64,000 nucleotides of DNA from Haloferax marinisediminis (GTDB taxonomy: Archaea > Halobacteriota > Halobacteria > Halobacteriales > Haloferacaceae): the NCBI RefSeq assembly GCF_009674585.1, contig NZ_WKJP01000001.1, forward strand, positions 868,001-932,000. The letters are read 5' to 3'. The position numbers were made by a program, and so were the translations under genes. Under the pieces are notes generated by a model. The model was not told the origin of the DNA. It made no database searches and was given only the letters and a program-made list of their open reading frames with translations. This document shows, one piece after another, positions 60,567 to 62,646 of this stretch (the stretch's first letter is position 1; each line of letters begins with the position of its first letter).

Positions 60567-61307
60567 TTACGTTCCCTGGCTCAGTGCCGCTTCGACCATC
60601 TGGTTGCGTTGCAGAAGCGTCTGGCGGACACGGTCAGACAACTCTTCTGGCGGGTCTGCAAGAGCGGGTTGTTCGAGGGGGTCAGGTCGGCCGACGATAA
60701 CGCTCCCGATCATCCCCAGCAGTTCGTGCGGAATACAGTAGTAGTGGTAGACGCCTTCGAGGTCGAACGTCTGTTCGAACGTCTCACCGCCCTCGGTGAA
60801 GACGCCGCTGTCCCACGACGCAGCACCATCGGGGACGAGTTGTGGCCTGTCGTTCGCTGGTGAGTACGACGTCGTCGAGTGGAATCCGCTAACGTTGGTC
60901 CATCGGACCGTTCCACCTTCGTTGACCCAGACGACGTGGGGCTCGAAGTGATGCCCCCGGTCTGTCGACACCATCGACACGGATACACTGTCGACTGGGC
61001 CGTCGAGTACTTCATCGTGTTCTCCGTCGGCGTACTCGTCACTCTCGTCGTCGTGGTGTTCTGTATCGTCGTGGTGCTCAGTTTCTTCGTGATGGGTTGT
61101 TTCCTCGTGGTGGTCTGTGTCGTCGTGGTGTTCAGTTTCCTCGTGGTGCTCCGTCTCCTCCGCTGTTTCACTCGTGGTTGTCGACTCGTCACCACTACTA
61201 TCCCCACCCGCGGTTGGGGGTGCTGTCGTACACCCTGCAAGTCCTGTTACCGTCGTCGCTCCCGTAAGAATGAGGAACTGGCGGCGGTGAAGTTCAGTAT
61301 CGAACAT
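60567..61307 (-). CDS. Halocyanin-like blue copper lipoprotein with His-His hexad linker
   Basis: A 246-residue exported lipoprotein: HRRQFLILTGATTVTGLAGC (Tat motif, lipobox Cys26). Residues 51-86 are six hexads of the form acid-Thr-x-His-His-acid (ETEHHE, ETEHHD, DTDHHE...). The blue copper (cupredoxin) domain follows, with WTNVSGFHSTTSY (first His), VYHYYCIPHELLGM (Cys, His, Met) as type-1 copper ligands. A 40-residue helical C-terminal tail ends the protein. Blue copper proteins carry electrons at the membrane surface. The hexads could bind additional metal. ATG 61307 is used; GTG 61316 is possible. Confidence 0.88.
   Translation of the reverse strand: MFDTELHRRQFLILTGATTVTGLAGCTTAPPTAGGDSSGDESTTTSETAEETEHHEETEHHDDTDHHEETTHHEETEHHDDTEHHDDESDEYADGEHDEVLDGPVDSVSVSMVSTDRGHHFEPHVVWVNEGGTVRWTNVSGFHSTTSYSPANDRPQLVPDGAASWDSGVFTEGGETFEQTFDLEGVYHYYCIPHELLGMIGSVIVGRPDPLEQPALADPPEELSDRVRQTLLQRNQMVEAALSQGT
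61050..61157 (-). repeat. Six 18-bp tandem repeats encoding His-His hexads
   Basis: Six in-frame 18-base units encode acid-Thr-x-His-His-acid (residues 51-86 of the halocyanin-like protein). Units vary at wobble and acidic positions, but keep the His-His pair in all six. Confidence 0.85.
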
Positions 61308-61403
61308 CTCATTCACCGTACGTGTAAACTAGGTGTCGAACGGGCATAACGTGTGATAGTCTGAGCGTGAGAGCGAGAGAACGCCTGAAACGAGGGGTTT
61401 GTG

Positions 61404-61766
61404 TTAGCAGCCTCGACCACCGCCGTACATTCCGCCTCGGTCGTACATTCCACCCTGACCGTACATTCCACCGCCACCTCGTCCGGCCATCCACGGTCCA
61501 CGGGCGTGGTCTTCAGCCATGTGCTGGCCCATCTCTTCGACGGTCACGCCCATGTGTGACTCCATCCACTCGACGGCACCGGGTCCCATGTGTTGCGTCA
61601 TGTGGGCTTCCATCCACGCGGTCCACTCCTCGGCGGTTCCACCATACGGTGGCGTGTGGTCTGTCGGTTGACTGGGTCCGTGTGCGCTCACCACGGGGGC
61701 GGTGAACACGAGTCCGACGAGTACGAGTGCCACGAGCAGCCATTGTCTACGAGTAAATCGGGTCAT
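61404..61766 (-). CDS. Secreted Met/His-rich protein with Gly-Met-Tyr repeats
   Basis: A 120-residue protein. Residues 1-28 are a signal sequence (TRRQWLLVALVLVGLVFTAPVVSA; RR suggests Tat). The mature part is rich in Met and His: WMEAHMTQHMG and WMESHMGVTVEEMGQHM repeat a WME-x-HM motif. The C-terminus has three GGMY repeats (GGGMYGQ, GGMYDR, GGMYGG) and ends GRGC. Such Met/His patterns suit soft metal ions, especially Cu(I) or Ag(I). No known family is certain. A GAGAACG direct repeat lies upstream and the regulator gene stands beside it. Confidence 0.65.
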   Translation of the reverse strand: MTRFTRRQWLLVALVLVGLVFTAPVVSAHGPSQPTDHTPPYGGTAEEWTAWMEAHMTQHMGPGAVEWMESHMGVTVEEMGQHMAEDHARGPWMAGRGGGGMYGQGGMYDRGGMYGGGRGC

Positions 61767-61832
61767 TGTCGTTCTCCTCGGTTACTCATAGAACCGCCCA
61801 GTGGTTATCCCCGTGGGCGTGAACAGACGCAG

Positions 61833-61851
61833 GAGAACGTTCGAGAACGTT
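61833..61851 (-). promoter_or_regulatory. Candidate operator: GAGAACGTT direct repeat at the Met/His-rich protein promoter
   Basis: GAGAACGTT occurs at 61833-61841 and again at 61843-61851, ten bases apart (one helical turn). The minus strand has a TATA-like CGATAAAC at 61848-61855, directly next to the repeats, and a related reverse half site (AGCGTTCT) at about 61867-61874. A GAGAACG copy also lies upstream of the halocyanin-like gene at 61377-61383. Likely a regulator-binding site. Confidence 0.5.
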
Positions 61852-61937
61852 TATCGAGCATTCTCAGCGTTCTTCAGCCACAGAATCGTTCGTCGGCCCT
61901 GAATTCGAGGGGCAGGTCACAGACACCGAATGCGTGG

Positions 61938-62528
61938 TCACTGTGTCTGGTTCTGTTCGAGGTCGTCGCTCGGGTAGATTCGGTACGTCCGACCCTGACG
62001 CTCGCGGTACAGCAGTCCGCGCTTTTCGAGTTCACTCACCGTCTGGCTCACTTTACTCTTCGAGAAGTTCGACCGGTCGCGGAGCTCTATCTGCGTGATT
62101 CCCGGCGACGTGAACACCGGTTCGAGGACGCGACGTTCGTCTTCGGGGAGGACATCGAGCAGTCGTGGACGATTCGCCCCACCCACGGTGGTCTTCGATT
62201 CAGCCGGCTCACTACCCGTTGTATCCTCTGTCTCCTCGGATGACGTGGCTTCGGTGGGTGTGTTCTGGACCGCCTCTCCGGTCGACGTGAGCCCGCTTCG
62301 GAAGACGAGATAGAGTCCACCAATCGCGGCCGAAGCGAGGACTCCCCCGACGACGAACCACAGCGGGTTGGTGCCGTGGACTGAAGACATCGAACCGCCC
62401 ATCATCGGCCCCATCATCTCACCTACCGCGCGATTTTGCTGGTCCGCCTGCCAGCCAAAGAAGACGCCGAAGACGAGGGTCGTCGTGGCGATGAGGCCAA
62501 CGACGACATCAGCACGCTGCCGATTCAT
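61938..62528 (-). CDS. Membrane-tethered winged-helix regulator with Met-rich outer segment
   Basis: A 196-residue protein. Two predicted membrane helices lie at about residues 8-26 (DVVVGLIATTTLVFGVFFGW) and 55-76 (LWFVVGGVLASAAIGGLYLVF). Between them is a segment with GEMMGPMMGGSMSSVHG, rich in Met. An acidic, Thr-rich linker follows, then a winged-helix domain (about 125-185): DVLPEDERRVLEPVF, TQIELRDRSNFSKSKVSQTVSELEKRGLLYRERQGRTYRIYPS. This is a single-protein sensor-regulator candidate. Target and ligand are inferred from the neighbouring Met/His proteins. ATG 62528 starts MNRQRADV. Confidence 0.75.
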   Translation of the reverse strand: MNRQRADVVVGLIATTTLVFGVFFGWQADQQNRAVGEMMGPMMGGSMSSVHGTNPLWFVVGGVLASAAIGGLYLVFRSGLTSTGEAVQNTPTEATSSEETEDTTGSEPAESKTTVGGANRPRLLDVLPEDERRVLEPVFTSPGITQIELRDRSNFSKSKVSQTVSELEKRGLLYRERQGRTYRIYPSDDLEQNQTQ

Positions 62529-62646
62529 TTCACCCACCACCGAGAAACGTCCCAGCCAATCATACTGCTACCTTGGTCAGCCATCGTGGTACCTGTTTTG
62601 CTCAGTTTGCCTCGATTTCGTCCGAAATCTACGCGTCGCGTCGGGT

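Follow-up and report, generated by a model that had tools for sequence, protein, structure and literature searches.

Do three adjacent genes of Haloferax marinisediminis constitute a surface cassette for copper-like metals, in which a regulator senses metal outside the cell and controls exported metal-binding proteins? The question is raised by a stretch of 64,000 nucleotides (contig NZ_WKJP01000001.1, positions 868,001 to 932,000; hereafter the window), in which three minus-strand genes, here termed REG, MET and CUP, are transcribed in that order. An earlier note had described three same-strand genes in a row for a membrane-tethered winged-helix regulator with a Met-rich outer segment, a secreted protein with GGMY motifs and a final Cys, and a halocyanin-like lipoprotein with six His-His (HH) hexads, and the three genes and their products agree with each of these descriptions.

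REG (61938..62528, minus strand, from ATG; a GTG at 62540 is also possible) encodes, in order, a first transmembrane segment (TM1), the outer loop EMMGPMMGGSMSSVHGTNP (62364..62420, minus strand; from the alignment, with predicted topology), a second transmembrane segment (TM2), an acidic linker and a winged helix-turn-helix domain (61977..62144, minus strand; Pfam, alignment and Foldseek). The AF2 model agrees with this order, showing helices at residues 2-37 and 54-82 followed by a disordered linker and then by a winged helix that resembles MarR-family structures (Foldseek), with moderate confidence overall (pLDDT 63) and values of 83-89 across most of the winged helix. REG exceeds the Pfam gathering cut-offs of DUF7343 (E 9.6e-9; 35.4 bits vs 27.6), MarR_2 (E 7e-8; 32.9 bits vs 27) and MarR (28.4 bits vs 24.6), which assigns it to the MarR/DUF7343 winged-helix regulators, and falls far below the NCBIfam cut-off for CopY-type copper repressors (TIGR02698; 13.9 bits vs 121.95). 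With a DNA-binding domain and two hydrophobic helices in a single chain, as seen in sequence and model, REG is organized as a one-component regulator, and it is predicted to reside in the membrane with the loop outside. Residues M38, G39, M41, M42, S45, M46 and H50 of this loop are invariant in an alignment of 20 sequences.

The product of MET (61404..61766, minus strand) is rich in Met and His, carries GGMY repeats and terminates in Cys; its sequence predicts a signal peptide. The mature protein contains four MX2H motifs (MEAH, MTQH, MESH and MGQH) and 12% Met, compared with 1.5% in the long open reading frames of the window, and is modelled as a three-helix core at ~90 pLDDT followed by a disordered tail. 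No family match was obtained in Pfam or NCBIfam, and PDB sequence and fold searches returned nothing credible, the viral proteins listed there being regarded as noise. In an alignment built on homology only, Cys ends all 25 MET-proper proteins, mostly as GHC; the C-terminus in L040 differs, and in L076 and L169 the MET-like partners do not have this Cys.

CUP (60567..61316, minus strand, GTG start at 61316 or ATG at 61307) encodes a lipoprotein with a Tat motif, a LAGC lipobox and a cupredoxin domain (PF00127; E 3e-11; 43.9 bits vs a cut-off of 21.2) with the type-1 ligand pattern H...C-x2-H...M, as expected of a halocyanin-like cupredoxin, yet it scores below the NCBIfam cut-off for the halocyanin domain (TIGR03102; 44.0 bits vs 93.8). 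Its six HH hexads lie in an acidic linker at residues about 56-91 (61044..61151, minus strand) and are not kept as hexads in relatives, the closest of which have irregular HH pairs and the more distant ones a His/acidic linker only. CUP starts 87 bp downstream of MET and probably shares the MET promoter as a second exported copper protein. In another contig of the same genome (G000:C5:158789-163824), a CUP-like paralogue, spread over two reading frames and interrupted by a stop, accompanies a second CopB-type ATPase. About 530 bp beyond CUP follows a DUF3179 gene (60036-59266) that carries a CPxC-like motif; DUF3179 genes are also found near the same trio in L031 (two copies), L032 and L034 (one each), and a functional link with the cupredoxin is possible.

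The earlier note had proposed to check whether the three genes are co-located across haloarchaeal genomes and took a lack of clustering as evidence against the cassette; co-location was confirmed for REG and MET and only in part for CUP. REG was identified in 139 of 391 Halobacteria genomes, about a third of those sampled, often on plasmids common to several genera, and among 295 genomes sampled across the phylum it was found only within the same order. MET is present in 112 of the 391 genomes (61 of 148 in the family), of which 107 also encode REG; a Fisher test of this association gives p 1e-59, a value that ignores phylogeny and includes a few matches that are fragments. REG lies within 10 kb of 115 of the 137 MET matches, always upstream and on the same strand in 112, often with a multicopper oxidase gene between the two. 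This co-location is thus near universal, whereas CUP is a looser companion: REG, MET and CUP were seen as direct neighbours in this order only in four genomes of Haloferax, including that of the window, and in one of another genus (G034), and 22 of 40 MET places have a CUP-like gene no more than 25 kb away, the non-adjacent ones at distances of 1-22 kb. As both MET and REG represent families conserved across the Halobacteria, the features of the trio exceed what chance would produce. Many copies of the module are plasmid-borne and patchy in distribution. Furthermore, MET is 100% identical on plasmids of Halobacterium, Haloarcula, Halobaculum and Halobellus (L054, L055, L056, L187 and plasmid matches H21-H25), which points to a recent exchange of the island among these genera.

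The DNA in front of MET is also strongly conserved. A 93-bp block (61801..61893, minus strand), with the exact core AACGTTCTCGAACGTTCTC at 61833-61851 (minus strand), represents a candidate REG operator. The 77 distinct copies of this block, located upstream of partner genes, align without gaps and yield the consensus GAACG(A/G)TC - AAACGATTAG - TA.AAACGTTCTCGAACGTTCTCC - GTTCACACCCA - GATAAC. Its half-sites lie at columns 8, 27, 47 and 57 and are therefore phased at 19, 20 and 10 bp, which suggests a protein bound to one face of the helix. A position weight matrix detected the block in 117 of 124 loci and nowhere in 743 kb of shuffled sequence, and a pattern scan recovered 121 sites in 101 of 391 genomes, compared with none for a reversed control pattern. 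At 79 of 80 MET-adjacent sites the block is situated exactly 47 nt before the MET start. The same scan found no site in the five genomes with MET and without REG (G002, G010, G096, G291 and G295). No consensus fold and no credible Rfam match were found for the block, and a riboswitch or other RNA element was accordingly rejected. The core gave 38 stretches in viral contigs, where chance matches are expected in a collection so large. In the window's genome the exact core occurs only at 61833-61851; the next-best sites have three mismatches and seem to be chance occurrences, so a wider regulon there was discarded. Extra copies of the block precede SHOCT membrane-protein genes that encode stretches rich in Met (L071, L073, L075, L078, L088 and L089), which are a probable second target, and the weight matrix also places the block before a lipoprotein gene in L071 and L072. 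Judged by conservation across genomes, the conserved unit is REG, the 93-bp block and MET, not REG, MET and CUP.

Would REG itself bind this block, or does the block serve a different cytoplasmic metal regulator, such as an Lrp/TRASH, AsnC-type or other helix-turn-helix protein of the island, while REG merely travels with MET or controls something else? AsnC/Lrp-type and other helix-turn-helix genes do occur in these islands, and REG has no block in front of it. Against this, REG is encoded in all 101 genomes with a block: 112 of the 121 sites lie within 12.5 kb of REG, and the other nine, far from REG or on other contigs, are nonetheless in REG genomes. Moreover, an Lrp-type gene was detected in only 14 of 115 REG loci at the cut-off used, and no other regulator adjoins the trio in the window. 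We consider a different regulator unlikely. It is very likely that the pairing of REG and MET is real, conserved and regulatory, with a DNA site of its own.

REG loci without MET were sampled separately (20 loci in which MET has no match, and 60 loci of greater diversity). Most encode, after REG, a small signal-peptide protein with Met/His repeats and Cys at or beside its end, and the repeats differ widely in sequence (e.g. GEHMADHNH, HHAEHEPGE and GDHHDRNHAH); some have a SHOCT gene alone or no partner. A combined partner test within 2.6 kb was passed by 82 of 116 REG loci, compared with a background of 110 of 900 signal-peptide-like reading frames of the same loci, the partners themselves included. 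Because this test required a terminal Cys, the count of 82 alone cannot prove that the Cys is conserved, which for MET proper is shown by the homology-only alignment described above. In the mature partners, Met makes up 7.6% and His 11% on average; 81 of the 82 contain exactly one Cys, the terminal one having been selected for. The REG loops, taken by HMM alignment, keep Met or His across homologues: those with three or more His go with His-rich partners and those with four to six Met mostly with Met-rich ones. The Met/His content of loop and partner correlates (Spearman 0.43 for 82 loci, 0.54 for 64 unique loops; phylogenetic contrasts r=0.31, p=0.005), a weak relationship that is suggestive and not strong. 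Exceptions are L084, L085 and L177, in which a Met-rich loop accompanies partners that are low in Met and high in Tyr, Gly and His.

The neighbourhood of REG points indirectly to copper. A CopB-type ATPase was detected in 54 and a CopA-type ATPase in 51 of 115 REG loci, two queries that can match the same gene, followed by DUF302 (46), SHOCT (37), cupredoxin (31), multicopper oxidase (23) and HMA (14) genes. An ArsP-type permease with a C-terminal YHS/TRASH-like domain also recurs beside REG (54 of 115 loci, e.g. L062:3667-5061). One CopB-type representative has a CPH motif and a His-rich N-terminus. Close CopB-type genes occupy two places in the 3.49-Mb genome of the window, so their occurrence in 47% of loci of ~11 kb is far above the base rate. 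On plasmid pNG600 of Haloarcula marismortui, an HMA protein, a P-type ATPase, a permease, REG (RR_RS01540) and MET (RR_RS01545) occur together, with SHOCT, DUF302, SHOCT, thioredoxin and cupredoxin genes further on. In the window itself there is no ATPase or oxidase near the trio. Among the genes that Haloferax alexandrinus induces under silver are two of the plastocyanin/azurin type and one for a SHOCT membrane protein (PMC10694973).

These neighbours bear on two further explanations. REG could sense redox state, oxidants acting on Met or envelope stress, with MET as a Met-based oxidant scavenger or envelope protein: Met-rich segments are open to oxidation, thioredoxin genes often lie nearby (20 of 115 loci), and a recognised metal marker is missing near 25 of 120 loci. 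Yet the switch of partners from Met-rich to His-rich fits metal ligands and not oxidant scavenging, and the common neighbours are copper ATPases and oxidases, which makes this explanation unlikely. The module might instead acquire copper and deliver it to exported cuproproteins such as cupredoxin and multicopper oxidase, as MET adjoins a cupredoxin gene in Haloferax and lies near a multicopper oxidase gene in many genomes. That it serves in delivery and not in detoxification seems quite improbable, given that few neighbours are as frequent as export ATPases and that plasmid-borne, patchy copies are typical of resistance. A response of the module to soft metals, by comparison, is likely in our judgement. 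The core of the earlier proposal, an outer-segment sensor that controls a copper-linked surface metal protein, receives strong indirect support from genome comparison, because REG and MET are co-located, a conserved block precedes MET and many loci lie among copper-export and copper-oxidase genes.

We hypothesize that REG, the DNA block and the secreted protein act as a haloarchaeal extracytoplasmic response module of the Cu(I)/Ag(I) type, the reading we favour with some reserve. REG would reside in the cytoplasmic membrane, where its Met/His-rich outer loop would bind soft metal at the cell surface. Once metal is bound, the winged helices in the cytoplasm would change state at the phased half-sites of the block and thereby switch on the gene downstream, and the resulting small exported Met/His-rich protein ending in Cys could bind excess metal outside the cell. 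That the loop senses metal on the outside and REG exerts direct control is rather probable, to a similar degree. Sequence alone establishes the pairing of the genes, the conserved block and its restriction to genomes with REG, and the copper neighbourhood, whereas the topology is a prediction. We infer the binding of REG to the block, the binding of metal by the loop, copper or silver as the metal and the sign of regulation; with a domain of the MarR type in REG, release of repression may be the somewhat likelier mode. The chances seem about even for the broader view of a widespread one-component transmembrane Cu/Ag sensor with a multi-site operator and an exported sponge that shifts between Met-rich and His-rich forms while keeping its terminal Cys, the operator being better conserved than the sponge.

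Few ways are described for archaea to sense toxic metal before entry, and the copper regulators in the accessible literature searched are cytoplasmic. If the proposed mechanism is correct, a membrane one-component sensor, a defined candidate operator and a secreted effector would make pre-entry metal sensing directly testable, and two gene families whose present annotation goes no further than 'MarR family transcriptional regulator' and 'hypothetical protein' would gain a role.

Among known proteins, halocyanin/plastocyanin cupredoxins share PF00127 and the H-C-H-M ligand pattern with CUP, which differs by having a long linker of His and acidic residues, including the HH hexads, ahead of the domain and by its score below the NCBIfam halocyanin cut-off. 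PcoE is a SilE-type exported metal sponge and shares the SilE features that can be likened to MET, and CusF combines Trp with Met and His, a likeness to MET that serves as a lead only. Like MET, SilE is a small exported Met/His-rich protein with MX2H motifs, encoded beside metal efflux genes and controlled by an outward-facing sensor, as is proposed for MET, and in SilE peptides these motifs bind Ag+ (PMC10080550). MET resembles such sponges in being exported, rich in Met and His and equipped with MX2H/HX2M motifs, but has no detected sequence relation to SilE or PcoE (no Pfam or NCBIfam match) and possesses a predicted three-helix core and a C-terminal Cys. In contrast to SilRS-type two-component control, REG is a single membrane protein and not a kinase pair. 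The literature on metal resistance in haloarchaea covers CopA, CopZ, Lrp and ArsR-type regulators (PMC3600143, PMC9240420, PMC12029414, PMC10694973), and in the accessible text of these papers neither a membrane-bound metal regulator nor such a secreted protein was found; the same holds for any archaeal metal regulator with outer ligands in the literature searched. The silver-induced Lrp-copA-copZ genes of Haloferax alexandrinus (PMC10694973) belong to this known repertoire. CopR and Lrp-TRASH regulators of the cop cluster occur with CopA-type ATPase and chaperone genes, a setting akin to that of REG, but are soluble and cytoplasmic, whereas REG is predicted to be membrane-bound and putatively controls an exported protein. 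Bacterial ToxR and CadC resemble REG in having a membrane-tethered DNA-binding domain with an outer segment. The archaeal membrane-bound transcription factor ArnR and its relative ArnR1 are likewise tethered and carry an outer segment (ArnR cited in PMC13286277), although ArnR regulates archaella/pili. Membrane-bound transcription factors of archaea are thus already known, and what looks undescribed is the putative copper/silver module with a secreted partner, in which REG is set apart from ToxR, CadC and ArnR by its C-terminal MarR/DUF7343 domain, its short Met/His outer loop and its setting in copper islands.
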